64,000 bases of DNA, taken from positions 49,214-113,213 of the forward strand of contig JAKSLI010000001.1 in the NCBI GenBank assembly GCA_024401305.1, given 5' to 3'. Under the pieces are notes generated by a model. That model saw only the letters and a program-made list of their open reading frames with translations, was not told the DNA's origin and searched no databases. Shown piece after piece: positions 2,755 through 63,900 of this stretch (position 1 is the stretch's first letter; each line of letters opens with the position of its first letter). The position numbers and the translations under genes were made by a program. The stretch is from Bacteroidaceae bacterium (lineage in GTDB: Bacteria; Bacteroidota; Bacteroidia; Bacteroidales; Bacteroidaceae).

Positions 2755-2779
2755 GCCTTAATTGTTGTTTCCCAATTGT

Positions 2780-5155
2780 TTAGAATGGGTATCCGATTGC
2801 AAAATGAAGAGTGTGGCTGTCCTTGAATTTTGTGAAATTGTAGAAACCACTCTTGGATGTCTTGTATGGAGCGTGGAGCCCAAGTCCCCAGTCAAGTCGT
2901 AACACGAGGAAATCAAGGTCGTATCGGAAGCCAAATCCTGTGCCCACAGCCATTTCCTTTAGAATGTTTTTGAACTGGAATCGAGCGCCTGTTCGCACAT
3001 CATCGTCACGCATAGCCCAAACATTTCCTGCGTCAATGAATGCCGCACCATAGAGACTTCCGAAAAGGCGTTTGCGATATTCAAGGTTCAAAAGCAGGAG
3101 AATATCGCCTGTTTGGTCAACATAAGATGTAGCACGGTCGGTCGATCTGTAACTTCCTGGGCCAAGACTTCTTGCCGCAAAAGCACGAACAGAATTGGCA
3201 CCACCGATATAGAACTGCTCCGTATATGGCGTTTGACTCATGTTTCCGTAACTCCAAGCAACTCCCATGTTTGTATGGAAAACGAATTGGTCTTCGTCAT
3301 TCAGTCGCCATGTCTTACGAAAATCCGTCTCAAACTTCAGGAATTGTGCATAGACATTCTTGAACATTGTCTTGTTCGTTTCTAACCAAGCCTGACCAAA
3401 AAATGCCTTGTTTATCATGCTGGTAATATTGCCGGCTTCAGTAATGGTTGCGCTCCATTGAATTGGATTTAGTTTGGTTTGTGGAGAGATATATGTATAT
3501 GTGTATTGCAACTTCGGAATGAACATGTCCTGCATAGCAACCTTCAGGTAAGAATTCCTGTTAAGAATTGAATCGAACATTTCGGAGCGATAGTTCAATC
3601 TTTGGTAAGTGAGGACAAGTGGACTCAGCTGATGTGTTATGTTGAGCTTTGGTTTCCAGATATAACTCCATTCACCCGAAGCAGAGTGCATTCTGTAATA
3701 GCTTGGACGATGGATGATATTGAACGACTCGGTAATCTTTGTTGCAGGAGAAACTGCGTAATGAAGTCTGCGCTTACGTCGGCCGTTAGCGTCGCGTTTT
3801 CCGTTGATGAAAGGAATGAGCAAGCGTGGCCACTCGAGAGAAGCGTCCATACCATATTCGTATGAGTTGCGCTCAGATGTGCTGAGGGAACTTGATTCCT
3901 GCCATTCGTAAGAGGCGTGGAGATTGATGTCGAACTTCTCGCCACCGCGGAAAGCATTCTTCTTGGTAAGACCAACTTTTAACTCAGGTCCTGTACGCCC
4001 AGACATCTTGTGAATGAAATTCGATTGAATATAGAAATCGTAAGGCTTGTTAAGAACGCAGAGCACATTAAGGTCGAGCGAGTCGCGCCCACGAGGTGTG
4101 AACTGAAAATCAACGCTGCTGAACAATCCCATGGTAGATAGCGTGTTTACAGCATCAGAATGACTTTGATAACTGTAGATCTTACCACGGCGAATGTCTC
4201 TCATATTTTGAAGAATGACACGCGTGCGTACGGGAGATTTCTTTCCATTGAAGCGCACTTTCAATGAACTGCGGTTTGTGGAATCAGTTAGCTCTTCCTG
4301 ATATTGGCGCTTGATGTCGATTGTTCTCTTTCCAATAAACCACTGTCGTTGAGCTTCTTCCGGAATACTGTCTGCCATCTGCAAGCGAAGATCTGCCCAA
4401 TTTTTCTTTCGAAGAGTGTCGGCAAGATATGATGCGTAAGAAGGATGGTAGTAATAATAGCCTTGGTCGCGAAGGAGTTTTGCCACGCGATTTCTTTCAG
4501 CATCAAGGATGGAAGTAGTGAACGGAGTGCCGTGTTTGATGAATGAAGCGGCAGAATCGCTTACTATGAGTGCGTTGGCATGTTCCGGGAAATTCGTATA
4601 TGTAAGTGTATCTATACGATATACATTCCTTGGTTCGATGTGGTATGAAATCTTTTGCTTCTTTGGATTGTCAGTTTCAATGATTTCGTAATCGACATCA
4701 CCATTGAAATATCCATTGTTTTTTAGGATATTGTTTGCCACTTGCGAGCGAAGCACAGGATTAACATTCCTCATCAGCACTGGCTGTTTTCCGAAAGATT
4801 GCGTAAGCCATTTCGCAAACTTTCCGTTCTTCTCATGAAAAGCATTCCAAATCCACAAACTATAAGGGAAAGGAGTTCGATAAAAACTACTGCCAAAAAG
4901 AGCACCATTTGGAGCTGTCTGCAATGCTGCGTCAAGTTCCTCTTGAGTGGTTGAGAAATGGTCGGAATTCTCGTGTTCGCCGTATGTTATTTCCTTCAAT
5001 CCAATAAACAACTTTTCTCCCTCTGGAAGTCCTGAAGTTGTAGAACAGGAAATCGTAAGGGAGAAAATCGCTATAAGTAATATGAGATTTCGTAAATGCT
5101 TCAATGGAGTAATTCTTAGCTTTATTACTTTGCTGGGATTGATTCCGTAACCCAC
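2780..5155 (-). CDS. TamL-like outer-membrane lipoprotein (BamA/TamA superfamily)
   Basis: The protein has 791 residues from the first ATG. Its N-terminus holds a lipoprotein signal ending LTISC, then POTRA-like segments, then a C-terminal beta-barrel. The barrel contains IGGANSVRAFAARSLGPGSY, which matches the conserved L6 loop of BamA/TamA proteins, and ends in a terminal phenylalanine (HFAIGYPF). Bacteroidetes carry a lipidated TamA version (TamL) that works with TamB in outer-membrane assembly. The ATG at 5155 overlaps the end of cysE by 31 nt. A TTG at 5104 would remove the overlap and give a compact 20-residue lipoprotein signal, so the true start may be there. The gene follows cysE. 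Confidence 0.85.
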   Translation of the reverse strand: MGYGINPSKVIKLRITPLKHLRNLILLIAIFSLTISCSTTSGLPEGEKLFIGLKEITYGEHENSDHFSTTQEELDAALQTAPNGALFGSSFYRTPFPYSLWIWNAFHEKNGKFAKWLTQSFGKQPVLMRNVNPVLRSQVANNILKNNGYFNGDVDYEIIETDNPKKQKISYHIEPRNVYRIDTLTYTNFPEHANALIVSDSAASFIKHGTPFTTSILDAERNRVAKLLRDQGYYYYHPSYASYLADTLRKKNWADLRLQMADSIPEEAQRQWFIGKRTIDIKRQYQEELTDSTNRSSLKVRFNGKKSPVRTRVILQNMRDIRRGKIYSYQSHSDAVNTLSTMGLFSSVDFQFTPRGRDSLDLNVLCVLNKPYDFYIQSNFIHKMSGRTGPELKVGLTKKNAFRGGEKFDINLHASYEWQESSSLSTSERNSYEYGMDASLEWPRLLIPFINGKRDANGRRKRRLHYAVSPATKITESFNIIHRPSYYRMHSASGEWSYIWKPKLNITHQLSPLVLTYQRLNYRSEMFDSILNRNSYLKVAMQDMFIPKLQYTYTYISPQTKLNPIQWSATITEAGNITSMINKAFFGQAWLETNKTMFKNVYAQFLKFETDFRKTWRLNDEDQFVFHTNMGVAWSYGNMSQTPYTEQFYIGGANSVRAFAARSLGPGSYRSTDRATSYVDQTGDILLLLNLEYRKRLFGSLYGAAFIDAGNVWAMRDDDVRTGARFQFKNILKEMAVGTGFGFRYDLDFLVLRLDWGLGLHAPYKTSKSGFYNFTKFKDSHTLHFAIGYPF

Positions 5156-6420: not shown

Positions 6421-8070
6421 ATGGTAAAAAGTGCACTTCAGCAAGCCCGTGCGGCTTATGCTCCAAAATTGCCAACTGCTCTCCAAGGTCCTGTAAAGGC
6501 AGTAGAGGGCGAGGCAACTCAGTCAGTAGGTAATCAGGAAGAAATCAAGGCTCTCTTCCCTAACACTTATGGCATGCCAGTAATCACTTTCGAAGCTGGT
6601 GAGAAAGTTGAACTCCCTGCATTCAATGTGGGTATCATCCTTTCTGGTGGTCAGGCTCCTGGCGGTCACAATGTAATCTCTGGTCTTTTCGACGGTGTTA
6701 AGTCTCTTAACCCAGAGAACAAGCTCTACGGTTTCATCCTCGGCCCTGGTGGTCTTGTTGACCACAACTATATGGAAATTACTCCTGAACTCATGGACGA
6801 ATACCGCAACACTGGTGGTTTCGACATCATTGGTTCTGGTCGTACTAAGCTTGAGAAGGAAGAGCAGTTTGAGAAGGGTATCGAGATTCTTCGTGAGCTC
6901 GGCATCAAGGCTCTCGTAATCATCGGTGGTGACGACTCTAACACTAACGCTTGCGTTCTCGCTGAGTACTATGCTGCAAAGAAGTACGGCGTTCAGGTTA
7001 TCGGTTGTCCTAAGACTATCGACGGCGACCTCAAGAACGAGCAGATTGAGACTTCATTCGGTTTCGACACAGCTTGCAAGACTTATTCTGAACTCATCGG
7101 TAACATCCAGCGTGACTGTAACTCAGCTCGCAAGTACTGGCACTTCATTAAGCTCATGGGTCGTTCAGCTTCTCACATCGCTCTCGAGTGTGCTCTCCAG
7201 TGCCAGCCAAACATCTGCCTCGTTTCAGAGGAAGTTGAGACTAAGGCAATGTCTCTCGACGATGTTGTAACATATATCGCAGAAGCTGTTGCAGCTCGTG
7301 CAGCTGAAGGCAACAACTTCGGTACTGTTCTCATCCCAGAAGGTATCATTGAGTTCATCCCTGCTATCAAGAAGCTCATCGCAGAACTCAACGAAGTTCT
7401 CGTTGACCCAGCAACAGGCGAAATGCGCGAATTCCCTTCAAAGGACGAGCAGGTTAAGTTCGTAAAGAGCCACATCGCTGCAGAGAACCTCGCTGTTCTC
7501 GAATCTCTTCCAAAGGATGTTGAGCGTCAGCTCTGCCTCGACCGCGACCCACACGGTAACGTTCAGGTATCTCTCATCGAGACAGAAAAGCTCCTCTCTG
7601 CAATGGTTGCTACTAAGCTTGAGGCTTGGAAGGCAGAAGGCAAGTACGTAGGCAAGTTCGGTACACAGCACCACTTCTTCGGTTACGAAGGTCGTTGCGC
7701 TGCTCCTTCTAACTACGATGCTGACTACTGCTACTCACTCGGTTACAACGCTTCTCGCCTCATCGCTAACGGCAAGACAGGTTACATGTCAATTATCAAG
7801 AACACTACAGCTCCTGCTGCTGAGTGGATTGCTGGTGGTGTGCCTATCACAATGATGATGAACATCGAGCGTCGTAATGGTCAGAACAAGCCAGTTATCC
7901 GCAAGGCTCTCGTTGAGCTCGACGGTGCTCCATTCAAGTTCTTCGCTGCTCACCGTGAGGAATGGGCTAAGCAGACAGCTTATGTTTACCCAGGTCCTAT
8001 CCAGTACTGGGGTCCTACAGAGGTTTGCGACCAGTGTACTAAGACTCTCGCTCTCGAGCAGGCTAAGTAA
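6421..8070 (+). CDS. pfp: Pyrophosphate-dependent phosphofructokinase (PFP)
   Basis: The 549-residue enzyme converts fructose 6-phosphate to the 1,6-bisphosphate reversibly, using PPi instead of ATP. ILSGGQAPGGHN is near residue 73. GGDDS at 169-173 has the second Asp that blocks ATP binding, and PKTIDGDLKN around 197 has the Lys typical of PPi enzymes. MGRSASHIALECALQ follows. The length fits the long PFP class. Codon use is strongly biased (many CTC, GTT, GAG, AAG codons), which suggests high expression. It has its own promoter at 6371 and is followed after 5 nt by the GH25 gene. An ATP-type pfkA lies at 53404. Confidence 0.95.
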   Translation: MVKSALQQARAAYAPKLPTALQGPVKAVEGEATQSVGNQEEIKALFPNTYGMPVITFEAGEKVELPAFNVGIILSGGQAPGGHNVISGLFDGVKSLNPENKLYGFILGPGGLVDHNYMEITPELMDEYRNTGGFDIIGSGRTKLEKEEQFEKGIEILRELGIKALVIIGGDDSNTNACVLAEYYAAKKYGVQVIGCPKTIDGDLKNEQIETSFGFDTACKTYSELIGNIQRDCNSARKYWHFIKLMGRSASHIALECALQCQPNICLVSEEVETKAMSLDDVVTYIAEAVAARAAEGNNFGTVLIPEGIIEFIPAIKKLIAELNEVLVDPATGEMREFPSKDEQVKFVKSHIAAENLAVLESLPKDVERQLCLDRDPHGNVQVSLIETEKLLSAMVATKLEAWKAEGKYVGKFGTQHHFFGYEGRCAAPSNYDADYCYSLGYNASRLIANGKTGYMSIIKNTTAPAAEWIAGGVPITMMMNIERRNGQNKPVIRKALVELDGAPFKFFAAHREEWAKQTAYVYPGPIQYWGPTEVCDQCTKTLALEQAK

Positions 8071-60406: not shown

Positions 60407-60574
60407 TTATTCTACATCGAAATCATCATCATCTTTGAGCAGATCATGAGCCATTGGTATGTAGATAGGCTGTGTACCGTCTGCGTTGCCGCCCTTTACA
60501 GGCACTGATGCTGCGAGCAAGGTCTCTGCCTCGCCCTTGAAGATTTCCATCTCTGGTTTTATGTACTGTTTCAT
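60407..60574 (-). CDS. Small 55-residue peptide, unlisted, co-transcribed with the surface protein
   Basis: On the minus strand an ATG at 60574 opens a 55-codon frame that ends at 60407. The peptide starts MKQYIKPEMEIFKGEAETLL, then AASVPVKGG, and ends in an acidic tail (KDDDDFDVE). It begins 16 nt after the stop of the surface-protein gene, so translation is likely coupled. The layout (short basic start, central LLAASVPVKGG, acidic end) resembles families of small peptides seen in Bacteroidetes next to surface proteins. It has no signal peptide or lipobox and no named domain. Function is unknown. Confidence 0.65.
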   Translation of the reverse strand: MKQYIKPEMEIFKGEAETLLAASVPVKGGNADGTQPIYIPMAHDLLKDDDDFDVE

Positions 60575-60590: not shown

Positions 60591-63248
60591 TTATTTTACA
60601 ATCATCTTCACGCCACTTACGATGTAGATCTTGCCCTTCTCCATCGTCTTCACGCGCTTGCCGTCAAGAGTATAGACTGAGTCTGTAGTCTGTAGTTTGT
60701 AGCCTGTAGCCTCTATTGCGTTTGCATCCTCATCGAAGCCTACTGGCACGAATGCTGGTGCAGCACTTACGGAAGCACCGTCAAGCACTGTGCGGAATGC
60801 TGGCACTGTGAGCGCGTCTGCTATCTTGTAGAAGCCGAGACCGTCAGAGAGGTTCTGGAGCACATAGCCGCTATTGCTCTCTGCTGGAACGAGTGAAGAC
60901 TTGAGCGAACCTACGCTGTATTCAAACTCATCAGCATCGCTGTTGTCGCCAGAGAAGTTGTAAGTGCCGGCAGTACCTTCGATGATGAGCGGAGTGCAAG
61001 CAGCGATGCTTGTCTGTTCCTCAACCACTACCATGCCGTTCTTAACGCCTGTAGCCTTGTAAGCCTTCAAGCCTGTAGGAACTGTGGCATTGTATGGCAA
61101 GCAGAGAGTTGCGTAGCCGCCCTCAGGAACAACGAGTGATATTGCCTCCTCGCCGAATGCGCGGAAGTAGCCTTCAGTTGCAGCAAATTGGTCTTCCACT
61201 TCTTCAGTAGAGAAGCGAACCTTTGTGATGGAAATCTCATGATTGCCTGCTTCCACGCTAGCGTCTGCCTGAACCTTCACAGTGAAGAGAGACTCGTCGC
61301 CATCCTCACCGAAATAGATTGGGTCAAGGCTCATTGATGCGATACCGATTCGCAATGTTCTGCTGTCAACGATCTTCACTGAGGCAGAGTGTGTCTCGCA
61401 GCGGTATGAGTTTGGAGTGACAACCACAGCACCCTTCTTGTTTGTCACATAGCTAAAGCCTTCTGGGAGTTGCATTTCAAGCTGACAACCTACATAGTCC
61501 TCTGTGTTGAGATGTGCGTTGACAGTCAGTGTCTGCTGTGCGCCAGGCTCAATGTAAAGGTTCTCTGCATAAAGCTTCTGTGAATCCTTTGCAGCAACCT
61601 TCGCCATCTTCCTTGCGGCAGGAGCGGAAGCTGCCTCTACAGGACCTTCGTTGAGCATGTACTGGATGACCTTCGTTACGTCAAGGATGGTTATCGCGCC
61701 GTCCCCGTTCATGTCGCCAGCTTCTGTGTATGTCTCTTCGAGCATGTGCTTGATTGTGAGGGTAACGTCAAGGATTGTCCAGTCGCCATCGTCGTTGAGG
61801 TCGCCGAGAGTGAAGTTCTTCACCTCAAGAGCCTGTGTGATTGTAGGGCATTGAATTTCCTCGTCTTCCGTAGAAAGGCGCACGTTACTGATCTGCATAG
61901 CATACTCGCCGTCTGCCATACCTTCCTTTGCCATTACGCTAACATACATGATTGCGCCGTCCAAGTCTGTGAATGCACCGAGGCTCATTGAAGCACAACC
62001 GATGTTGAGAGTGCCGTCTGCCTTGAGCATAGATGTTACAGAGTGACCGTCAATGCGATTCTGGTTAAGGGTAATCACGGCATTGCCCTTTGCATTCTTT
62101 ATAAAGTCGAAGCCCTCAGGAAGCTTGATGTTGCACTGGAAGCCAACGATTTCTTCCTCATACTGCTCATCTACCACAAGTTCTACAGGTATCTGCACAA
62201 CCTGCCCCGGCTTCACCGTCTGCTTCTCAACATACATGTAGTTGCCCGATGTTGGGCGTGGGGTAACAGTAATGTCTTGAATTGCAACGATTGTTCCGAA
62301 ATCGCTCCAAGGAGCTGTTGATTTGTATGCTTCCAATGCAGATGCAGGCACATGGAGAGTTGCATTTTCTATGAAAGCGTCAAAGAAAGTCCCCGTCCCC
62401 ATTGCACCATCATAATATTTATTTTCTACAGCAGAAGGAACTTCTTCTGAAAAGCAAAAGAAATCTTTTAATAATTGGCAAACTTGGAATGCACCTTTAC
62501 CAATATTCTTTACAGAACCTCCTAAAGTTACAGAAGAAAGATTCCAACAACAGCCAAAAGCATAATCTTCTATATTTGTTACTGAATTTGGAATAATTAT
62601 TGACTCTAATTCTCCTATACCATAGAAAGCAAGTGATTTGATTCTAACAATTCCATTTGGTATAATTGTTTCGCCAGATCCTTGAATTAGATTGTTTGAG
62701 GTTGTCTCAATAATAGCATTGCAATTATCTCTACTATCATACTTTGTGTTAAACTTATCAACAACGATTGATTTGAGATATTCATTACTTTCAAAAGCAC
62801 TTTGACCGATTGAGCTAACGTAAGCAGGAATCTCAATAGAGGTTAGACCGCAATATGCGAATGCTCTCTCACCTATACTTGTTACAGAGCTCGGTATGGA
62901 AATCGATGTTAGTCCATTACAAAAGCAGAAAGCATATTTACCAATGCTCGTCACGCTGTTTGGAATTTCCACGGAGGTGAGGACATAGCATCCAGGAAAT
63001 GTATTATCTCCTATGCTTGTTACTCCTTCTTTTATTTGTATCCTACGAATTTCACGTATTTTATTATACCATGGAGTATTACTATCTGAAGTGTAATTTG
63101 ACATGTTTCCGCTACCAGAGATTACCAAGGTACCGTCATCATTGAGGACATAAGTGACATTCGTGCCACATGAGCCTGATTGAACAACTGCGGCATTGGC
63201 GGTTATAGTCACAACCATGAACGCCAAAAGAATTAATAGTTTTTTCAT
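60591..63248 (-). CDS. Secreted BspA-like LRR protein with cohesin-like and dockerin domains
   Basis: The protein has 885 residues from ATG 63248, chosen because the signal peptide (MKKLLILLAFMVVTITANA) starts there. Residues about 40-290 are BspA-type leucine-rich repeats (IPNSVTSIGKYAFCFCNGLT pattern). A cohesin-like module (about 325-470) follows, then a dockerin-like pair of Ca-binding loops (DLNDDGDWTILDVTL and DMNGDGAITILDVTK, about 480-535). A second cohesin-like module (about 555-690) and a C-terminal domain end in DSVYTLDGKRVKTMEKGKIY. A scaffold or adhesin role at the cell surface is likely. It is preceded by a structured leader RNA and followed by the 55-residue peptide gene. Confidence 0.85.
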   Translation of the reverse strand: MKKLLILLAFMVVTITANAAVVQSGSCGTNVTYVLNDDGTLVISGSGNMSNYTSDSNTPWYNKIREIRRIQIKEGVTSIGDNTFPGCYVLTSVEIPNSVTSIGKYAFCFCNGLTSISIPSSVTSIGERAFAYCGLTSIEIPAYVSSIGQSAFESNEYLKSIVVDKFNTKYDSRDNCNAIIETTSNNLIQGSGETIIPNGIVRIKSLAFYGIGELESIIIPNSVTNIEDYAFGCCWNLSSVTLGGSVKNIGKGAFQVCQLLKDFFCFSEEVPSAVENKYYDGAMGTGTFFDAFIENATLHVPASALEAYKSTAPWSDFGTIVAIQDITVTPRPTSGNYMYVEKQTVKPGQVVQIPVELVVDEQYEEEIVGFQCNIKLPEGFDFIKNAKGNAVITLNQNRIDGHSVTSMLKADGTLNIGCASMSLGAFTDLDGAIMYVSVMAKEGMADGEYAMQISNVRLSTEDEEIQCPTITQALEVKNFTLGDLNDDGDWTILDVTLTIKHMLEETYTEAGDMNGDGAITILDVTKVIQYMLNEGPVEAASAPAARKMAKVAAKDSQKLYAENLYIEPGAQQTLTVNAHLNTEDYVGCQLEMQLPEGFSYVTNKKGAVVVTPNSYRCETHSASVKIVDSRTLRIGIASMSLDPIYFGEDGDESLFTVKVQADASVEAGNHEISITKVRFSTEEVEDQFAATEGYFRAFGEEAISLVVPEGGYATLCLPYNATVPTGLKAYKATGVKNGMVVVEEQTSIAACTPLIIEGTAGTYNFSGDNSDADEFEYSVGSLKSSLVPAESNSGYVLQNLSDGLGFYKIADALTVPAFRTVLDGASVSAAPAFVPVGFDEDANAIEATGYKLQTTDSVYTLDGKRVKTMEKGKIYIVSGVKMIVK

Positions 63249-63289
63249 TTTATAAGTTTTTATGAAATTAAACAATCGTAACCATCATA

Positions 63290-63324
63290 AAAACAAAAAA
63301 GTGGAACCCGTCTGCCCGTTCCAC
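63290..63324 (-). terminator. Terminator between the leader RNA and the surface-protein gene
   Basis: GTGGAAC (63301-63307) pairs with GTTCCAC (63318-63324). On the minus strand the stem is followed by TTTTTTGTTTTT. It ends 42 nt before the start codon at 63248, so it could attenuate that gene or end an independent RNA. Confidence 0.8.
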
Positions 63325-63679
63325 TCATTGAGGTCTTCGCATTACCCATCTACGTTGAACGAGCAATGCCGAAGCCCCACCTGATATGATTATACAAACT
63401 ATAACTCTAACCTTGACCATGACTTTGATAATATGGTCAAAGCCTATTAGTCAACAGCCACAGATAGCTCTTGATATAACCATTCCGAAAGGACGTCACC
63501 ATTGCATTGTTCTTGACGTAGATTTTGAAAGTTGCGAAGTTTCAATGAGCCAAGCACAAGCGTAGTTACGCTCTTTTGTCATTATGTCTTGTTCCCATAA
63601 ACTCCCGAAAGAGTTCAGGAACGCCCTCCCACCTGAGGTGCCTCGGCATTGCCGTTAACATCCCAAACATGGTAAAGGA
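63295..63679 (-). ncRNA. Structured leader or stand-alone RNA, about 385 nt
   Basis: A full promoter upstream (63685-63716) and the terminator at 63290-63324 bound this RNA. The ends of its core pair over 13 positions (63363-63375 with 63640-63652, one G-U). Inside, several clear hairpins form, for example GTTCC...GGAAC around AACTC/GAGTT (63586-63619 region), AGCGTA/TACGCT, TTGAAA/TTTCAA and ACGTCA/TGACGT. CTTTGA/TCAAAG and TTGACCAT/ATGGTCAA overlap and exclude each other. There is no open frame of note. I do not see the marks of tmRNA, RNase P, SRP or a known riboswitch. It could be an attenuating leader of the surface-protein gene. Confidence 0.65.
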
Positions 63680-63684
63680 CGCTG

Positions 63685-63716
63685 CAAAAGTAATCAATAA
63701 TTTTCAATCTGCCAAA
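63685..63716 (-). promoter_or_regulatory. Promoter of the leader RNA / surface-protein gene
   Basis: On the minus strand TACTTTTG (63685-63692) and TTTG (63713-63716) are 20 nt apart. Transcription would start near 63678 and read through the structured region. Confidence 0.75.
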
Positions 63717-63770: not shown

Positions 63771-63900
63771 AGTAACTCGTGTTGAGTTATCGTGAGTTTT
63801 GCCTCGAGTTACCGTGGGTTATGAAATTATCTTCGTTAGTTACGAAATTATCTTCGTAAGTTATGAAATTATCTCTATGAGTTATGATTTTTTTCCTTAG
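63771..63900. repeat. Degenerate tandem repeat of period 21-22 nt
   Basis: Three near-identical 21-nt units (63819-63839, 63840-63860, 63861-63881) share TTAyGAAATTATCT and are flanked by decayed copies from 63771 and to 63900. The array is non-coding. From 63901 to 64000 I see no gene. Confidence 0.8.

Follow-up and report, generated by a model that had tools for sequence, protein, structure and literature searches.

The window, by which we mean the entire 64,000-nucleotide stretch of DNA that was analysed, carries on its minus strand the gene of a BspA-type LRR protein with a dockerin domain, and the several hundred nucleotides that precede this gene hold a promoter, a structured RNA and an intrinsic terminator. 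By eye, the N-terminus of the 885-residue protein resembles a signal peptide. A frame of 55 codons directly behind the gene possibly belongs to the same operon. The features of the locus, all on the minus strand and listed in the direction of transcription, are as follows.

63685-63716, minus: promoter, with TTTG at 63713-63716, a 20-nt spacer and TACTTTTG at 63685-63692
63294-63680, minus: leader RNA from its expected start to the end of the U-run, about 380 bases
63640-63652, minus: 5' strand of helix PX, pairing with 63363-63375
63564-63574, minus: strand AGAGCGUAACU, local partner at about 63559-63563; in the family it also matches the stretch after GCAACGG (P2L)
63549-63563, minus: 5' strand of the hairpin I stem and 3' strand of the local hairpin (alignment counts)
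63543-63548, minus: 5' strand of PA, pairing 6/6 with 63325-63330
63533-63539, minus: 5' strand of PC, CUUCGCA, the loop of mini-hairpin hp1, pairing 7/7 with 63335-63341
63518-63523, minus: 5' strand of PD, pairing 6/6 with 63348-63353
63504-63517, minus: 3' strand of the hairpin I stem (alignment counts)
63382-63486, minus: variable apical region with two mutually exclusive hairpins (sequence)
63375-63381, minus: X1 (GGUGGGG core), pairing with the terminator 3' arm or the 5' strands of the RNA
63357-63368, minus: II5, putative antiterminator 5' strand, pairing 10/11 with 63311-63321
63325-63356, minus: loop II, with PD2 (63348-63353), hp2, PC2 (63335-63341) and PA2 (63325-63330) (covariation)
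63311-63324, minus: X2, the terminator 5' arm (63318-63324), overlapping II3, the putative antiterminator 3' strand (63311-63321)
63295-63324, minus: terminator, a perfect 7-bp stem (63301-63324) and six U (63295-63300)
63301-63309, minus: terminator 3' arm (pairing tests)
63294-63300, minus: U-run (sequence)
63249-63293, minus: spacer with a weak possible hairpin (sequence)
60594-63248, minus: 885-aa BspA-type LRR protein with dockerin domain (Pfam PF13306, PF00404)
60407-60574, minus: 55-aa reading frame directly 3' of the LRR gene

The Bacteroidota promoter consensus consists of TTTG and TAnnTTTG, and both elements are present at the position where an earlier note on this DNA had placed a promoter; transcription would be expected to start near 63680. 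The same note had described one unit running from promoter to terminator with some 385 nt devoid of a long frame, and both statements held. The only reading frames in the leader are of 30-43 aa on the minus strand and of at most 59 aa on the plus strand, and the two boundaries are kept across the relatives described below: the TAnnTTTG box occurs in the expected 245-nt stretch of 131 of 143 testable copies (8 of 98 control stretches), and the U-run in 131 of 139 (14 of 98 controls). A TTTG or TTG, loosely matched 18-22 nt above the box, was found in only 74 of the 131 copies with a box. The terminator itself was confirmed; its stated distance of 42 nt from the start codon was not, as the codon at 63248 lies 46 nt past the U-run. 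A simple terminator scan did not return it, because its loop is longer than the scan permits. Upstream of the promoter, at 63815-63885, imperfect tandem repeats of GTTATGAAATTATCTTCG can be seen by eye.

The RNA is predicted to be strongly folded. Folding of the stretch 63294-63687 gave -146.7; its 100 dinucleotide shuffles averaged -105.9, and none was as low (z -6.9). Sixteen sampled copies of the family had a mean z of -7.1. The minimum-energy fold that a nested model gives for the window copy is a long rod. The closing helix of 13 pairs previously noted between 63640-63652 and 63363-63375 (PX) exists, with 12 Watson-Crick pairs and one G-U, and it recurs in part of the family. The hairpins CTTTGA/TCAAAG and TTGACCAT/ATGGTCAA, which the earlier note had considered as a switch, likewise exist and exclude each other; we rejected this role for them, since they lie in the variable apical part, at 63430-63460, and are unconserved beyond three close copies in the window's own genome.

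Relatives of the leader and the genes behind them

The genome from which the window derives has five strong copies: that of the window, two with 87-88% identity to it that also precede LRR-type genes, and two more divergent ones. One of these, C78, has a different gene behind it, and the other, C72, has no U-run and is close to the end of a contig. At two further places the score is weak (E 0.001 and 0.005). Named genomes, searched by pattern, gave at least 119 stretches, and the matches listed include Bacteroides, Parabacteroides, Phocaeicola, Prevotella, Segatella, Alloprevotella, Odoribacter, Tidjanibacter, Muribaculaceae and Paludibacteraceae. Two viral contigs were also found by pattern and were read by their frames; blastn with the window sequence against phage and plasmid records gave no match. 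A profile built from 113 copies matched 176 of the 179 collected sequences, its own 113 included, and 162 copies were left when duplicates had been removed.

The order and the phylum were sampled with R1, a covariance model of the 3' domain of the leader, under stricter filters by which weak matches are lost. R1 matched 42 of 295 genomes in the order sample, the window's own among them (41 of the 294 others), with 126 matches in all and one to nine per genome; in four of these genomes the only match is a weak one (E 1e-4 to 1e-3). Within the phylum sample of 296 genomes only the window's genome was matched (0 of the 295 others). A genus search at E up to 1 gave matches in 150 of 200 genomes, mostly by chance, and only the strong ones were used. 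The leader is, in the samples searched, a patchy, multi-copy element of the Bacteroidales.

Some copies have unusual surroundings. In L007, L152 and L178 (loci are cited by our own numbers) the U-run is absent directly behind the arm and the copy runs into other sequence, with GATAATCAGTAT- and TGTTCCC-like words after the RNA in L007 and L178; such ends may be those of an inserted element. In L038 the promoter region of the leader occurs a second time, at about 3218-3280 and there without the RNA, near what by eye is a nucleotidyltransferase/HEPN-like pair. In L044 a direct repeat of 242 bp, 98% identical (2741-2982 and 7442-7683), flanks the leader and its genes, and in L086 (Segatella copri iA622) a frame that by eye is integrase-like lies directly upstream of the leader copy, at 2774-4990 in the leader's orientation.

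What follows the leader is nearly always a gene on the same strand. A frame of at least 60 aa starts within 900 nt of the RNA in 138 of the 162 copies, and 133 of these 138 frames have the orientation of the leader; the distance from the estimated end of the RNA to the next frame has a median of 46 nt (quartiles 39 and 91). The nearest upstream frames are of mixed orientation (86 versus 57). We scanned 121 of the 133 first genes, leaving out those more than 250 nt away and cutting long ones at 1200 aa, and found 71 Pfam families, 61 of which occur in at most two members. The most frequent family, LRR_5, accounts for 17 of the 121, and the tie to the surface-protein gene that had been suggested for the window's leader was abandoned, as the leader precedes many unrelated genes. 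Four first genes of the SNF2/PLD type match antiphage models, and there are single cases of an SspB homologue, a protein kinase, a UvrD-like helicase, LytTR and SDR proteins; seven of ten proteins scanned singly had no match among the defence models. Nowhere among the 121 did we find the control of one pathway that would be expected of a riboswitch. The genes behind the leaders are unrelated accessory genes that form no coherent set.

Several of these loci contain further elements. L134, L151 and L056 are related accessory operons, with an Hsp70-like protein in L134 (Pfam) and a similar one, by eye, in L151; L053 and L131 are likewise related, and by eye perhaps L023 too, and L053 encodes a tubulin/FtsZ-like protein that scores below the curated Pfam cut-off. 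Both the Hsp70-like and the tubulin-like proteins are encoded further along their operons. In L137 the RNA is followed, as the first frame of 60 aa or more, by what by eye is a UpxY/NusG-like antiterminator, and a UpxY-like frame (also by eye) lies further on from the leader copy in L038. In L060, from Prevotella ihumii, an abiF RNA (RF03085) and an Abi-like frame (the latter by eye) lie side by side at 1254-2208, a few hundred bases away from the UvrD-like gene of the leader.

The leader RNA belongs to no Rfam family tested. None of the 4227 covariance models of Rfam 15 matched the window leader at its gathering cut-off, and a search with a 541-nt stretch at E up to 10 gave only weak matches to unrelated families, all far below the cut-offs (best E 0.43). 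When 18 loci with leader copies were searched, the leader remained unmatched and only tRNA, 5S and abiF were found elsewhere in them. ARAGORN detected neither a tRNA-like domain nor a tag frame, the features by which a tmRNA would be recognized, and the earlier opinion that the RNA lacks the marks of tmRNA, RNase P, SRP and familiar riboswitches was upheld in so far as no Rfam class matched. Our literature searches returned no description of the leader in the parts of the sources that were accessible, and it could be an unnamed entry among the 3161 candidates reported in PMC8040213. The accessible text of PMC2864571 names Bacteroidetes motifs, among them Bacteroides-2 and GUCCY-hairpin without accession; those of its motifs that are present in Rfam, a comparison that excludes these two, do not match the leader.

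The conserved core and its competing pairings

The 162 copies were aligned by sequence only, and 158 of them were tested in the style of R-scape, by G-test against 20 tree-based null alignments. The covariation among homologues by which the earlier note had proposed to judge the RNA was found: PA, PC and PD covary far above the tree-based null, and hp1 also exceeds it. Twenty-six column pairs lie above all 20 nulls, and 14 of them fall in PA (6), PD (5), PC (2) and hp1 (1); the other 12 are off-register neighbours or lie outside helices (columns 136, 161, 200, 277 and 347), so that part of the covariation signal is due to shared ancestry or misalignment. In this test hp2 reached only E 0.3, and hairpin I, stem II and the pairings of X2 and X1 with the arm were below threshold.

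The helices were also compared, in the 158 copies, with 200 shuffles, a count that ignores relatedness. PA is 93.7% paired with 396 cells changed on both sides (shuffled maximum 136), PC 98.9% with 138 (72), hairpin I 95.3% with 43 (27) and stem II 98.3% with 18 (13), and PD (75.0%, 282 cells) and hp2 (98.2%, 10 cells) are likewise beyond the 200 shuffles. The pairs of PA use all Watson-Crick types. PC has the form YYUCGCA with UGCGARR; its tree-based support falls on its two variable pairs, and its conserved core changes from C-G to G-C in four copies. Hairpin I is UUUUGAC:GUCAAAA and stem II is GUUGCUCGUU:GAACGAGCAAC. The variation in stem II is mostly from A to G opposite an invariant U, which keeps the pairs in RNA only and argues that the conserved structure is one of RNA and not of DNA.

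PA, PC and PD link two distant loops, those of hairpins I and II, and as modelled the three helices would fit either a pseudoknot with both hairpins or one long rod without them. All pairs of PA (6/6), PC (7/7), PD (6/6) and the terminator (7/7) are retained in the window copy, as are 10/11 of II.

Around this core several strands compete. In the family X1, X2 and X3 are rivals for the terminator 3' arm, hairpin II is a rival of the arm for X2, and the 5' module has alternatives of its own. In the 158 copies the pairing of X2 with the arm is 85.4% complete with 34 both-side cells (shuffled maximum 27), one position being A-C in 92 of 156 copies, and that of X1, which lies about 75 nt upstream of the arm, is 93.4% complete with 20 (10). 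A second alignment, A2, comprises 90 of 108 listed stretches. There II with hp2 is 98.2% paired (17 both-side cells) and X2 with the arm 89.4% (53 both-side cells), values that none of 500 shuffles equalled, and partners slid by 1-3 columns pair to at most 54.9% and 59.2%, respectively; the number of X2-arm pairs with both sides changed does not exceed that in shuffles (311 of 500). As hairpin II and the X2-arm stem occupy the same columns, they are mutually exclusive alternatives.

The third rival, X3, is the loop of a hairpin with a variable stem, situated between the U-run and the start codon, and it matches the terminator 3' arm. In 96 copies the mean score of X3 with the arm was 15.6, compared with 13.0 when permuted, and 0 of 5000 permutations were as high; the score reaches 14 in 66 of the 96 copies and in 14.5% of shuffled spacers, and the excess is also seen in the 57 copies without GGCUCC in the arm. 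Neither the window copy nor its close relatives have an X3 that matches the arm.

The strands of PX match each other better than permuted pairs in 132 copies (z 9.9), strongly only in a subset of the family. The 5'-module strand, in 135 copies, has a z of 12.5 for its long-range partner P2L and of 5.9 for the local one; the P2L match is weak in the window copy, and the cell counts of the local hairpin barely exceed the shuffles (9 both-side cells against at most 8). The tests of PX, P2L, X1, X2, X3 and hairpins I and II are shuffles or permutations that ignore relatedness, and none of these pairings is on the tree-based list. We also considered GCAACG:CGUUGC as an anti-antiterminator and rejected it, for it is nearly invariant, is statistically weak (6 both-side cells, shuffled maximum 5) and has one double-changed column, three of whose four changes are T-A, the window copy's own pair; GTC:GAC beside this helix was unsupported.

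Proposed attenuation and its alternatives

We consider it somewhat better than an even bet (about 0.55), judging from sequence and alignment, that these RNAs constitute a new Bacteroidales family of cis-acting leaders which act as transcription attenuators. RNA polymerase would start at the dedicated promoter and make a folded core, composed of hairpins I and II with loops complementary over PA, PC and PD, and then the intrinsic terminator. X2, the 5' arm of the terminator, would belong to the stem of hairpin II as well: with hairpin II formed, the terminator would be blocked and the genes behind it read, and with X2 paired to the 3' arm, transcription would stop. In a read-through RNA the loop of the X3 hairpin, just before the start codon, could capture the 3' arm, an action open to X3 only once transcription has passed the terminator. 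Termination would be conditional, hairpin II would mark the 'on' state, and a factor or ligand would tip the balance; as the controlled genes are unrelated, the signal is probably a general one and not the metabolite of one pathway. An attenuating leader with exclusive pairings had been envisaged before, and attenuation is indeed the most likely reading; the competing pairings of the family, however, sit at the terminator and in the 5' module and not at 63430-63460.

The arrangement by which the leader seems to work like an intrinsic-terminator attenuator comprises its place as a same-strand 5' leader (133 of 138), the terminator stem with its U-run, and an alternative helix, beyond shuffles, that excludes the terminator. 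The energies qualify the scheme. In the nested model, which omits pseudoknot energy and folding during transcription, the median cost over the minimum in 142 copies was 10.9 kcal/mol for II and 3.3 for the terminator; the minimum fold contains II in 1 of the 142 and the terminator stem in 43, II beats the terminator in 13, and in the window copy the cost is 32.6 kcal/mol when II is forced and 17.0 when the terminator is. Such costs suggest that the leader is 'off' by default and that a factor or ligand, folding in the order of transcription or the energy of the pseudoknot is needed to open it. X1 paired with the arm would likewise lie against the U-run and might act as a terminator of its own, so that the core need not be 'on'.

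Attenuators and riboswitch platforms with intrinsic terminators are alike in having a 5' leader, exclusive antiterminator and terminator helices that share a strand, and a U-run before the gene. The present leader differs from them in its three rival strands for the terminator 3' arm, one of which comes after the terminator, in its loop-loop core over three helices, in its unrelated genes and in its restriction, in our samples, to the Bacteroidales. In C4-type antisense RNAs and P4 immunity leaders, similar strands flank a middle strand that pairs with both, and this controls termination; the leader resembles them in that arrangement of strands and has no Rfam match to the C4 family (RF01695). 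The leaders of Bacteroides capsule operons with UpxY antiterminators are long and subject to premature termination, and they come from the same bacterial order as the leader RNA; the likeness is one of description, UpxY-like frames having been seen, by eye, near two copies only (L137 and L038).

The best of the other explanations, which we nonetheless hold to be unlikely, is an independent, trans-acting sRNA with a constitutive terminator, the downstream gene being expressed by leak-through and the terminated RNA perhaps binding X3 of the read-through mRNAs. The promoter and U-run are well defined, as such an RNA would have them, and in the family, the window copy excepted, X3 in the mRNA leader matches the 3' arm of the RNA. 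A proven precedent for a single promoter serving an sRNA and its mRNA target is IsrK of the Salmonella Gifsy-1 prophage, where, according to the accessible part of PMC4825925, a short terminated RNA and a read-through mRNA arise from one promoter, the leader of the mRNA has a stretch complementary to the short RNA, and the short RNA acts on its own long form. The succession of promoter, RNA, terminator and a gene beyond the terminator recurs here, as far as sequence can tell, and the short RNA is complementary to the mRNA leader in the family, though not in the window copy; in contrast to IsrK, as described in that part of the source, a prophage locus of another phylum, the leader is a 380-nt family with a large conserved core. 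The same arm is, moreover, present in cis on every read-through mRNA, the mutually exclusive antiterminator and terminator pairings would be superfluous for an sRNA, and a same-strand frame follows in 133 of 138 cases.

Decidedly less probable is a mobile DNA unit, of which the RNA would be the end or the recombination site of an operon-carrying cassette, with promoter and terminator secondary. The patchy, multi-copy spread is what such a unit would produce, and in L068/L162, L105/L123, L021/L175 and L026/L138 homology starts approximately at the promoter, with none upstream; L058/L104 and L145/L163, on the other hand, share upstream sequence as well. There are mosaics as well. The RNA and some 200-250 nt upstream are common to L060 (Prevotella ihumii) and L154 (Segatella copri Indica), whose genes differ from the U-run on; L032 and L055 have the RNA and 1.4 kb upstream in common, diverge directly behind it and later share a 120-nt stretch; L065 and L161 agree at 97% in the core and the 350 nt that follow it, and do not share the 5' part of the RNA. 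Recombination within the repeated leader is the simplest cause of these mosaics and accounts for them without a cassette. Integrase- or transposase-like frames were seen, by eye, in single loci only (L060, L042, L086), and no arrays of integron-type cassettes were seen in the loci read, an integrase-like frame lying, by eye, beside one copy (L086). A mobile unit would explain the patchiness but not the conservation at the level of RNA, to which the tolerance of G-U and the conserved promoter and terminator point. Least probable of all is a metabolite or ion riboswitch proper, whose pseudoknotted core would bind a small signal molecule: the compact core, the nearly invariant loops and the terminator/antiterminator platform would suit it, but genes without common ground suggest no ligand.

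Taken as an attenuator, the leader RNA looks like an undescribed on/off leader shared by unrelated accessory genes of the Bacteroidales. A wider proposal, which we put forward tentatively and with considerably more doubt, is that it is a gene-agnostic module, spread by recombination among these bacteria, which provides one RNA switch to unrelated accessory operons (surface LRR proteins; SspB- and SNF2/PLD-type defence; Hsp70- and tubulin-like proteins), and that X3 and the terminator arm fall into matched specificity classes by which each copy controls its own read-through mRNA and perhaps acts in trans too. If the attenuator reading is true, the guts of humans and animals would harbour a class of structured RNA with long-range loop-loop pairing that is absent from Rfam 15, and an attenuator that has a control strand placed after its own terminator; and if the switch is indeed shared, many accessory operons of gut Bacteroidales would answer to one signal.
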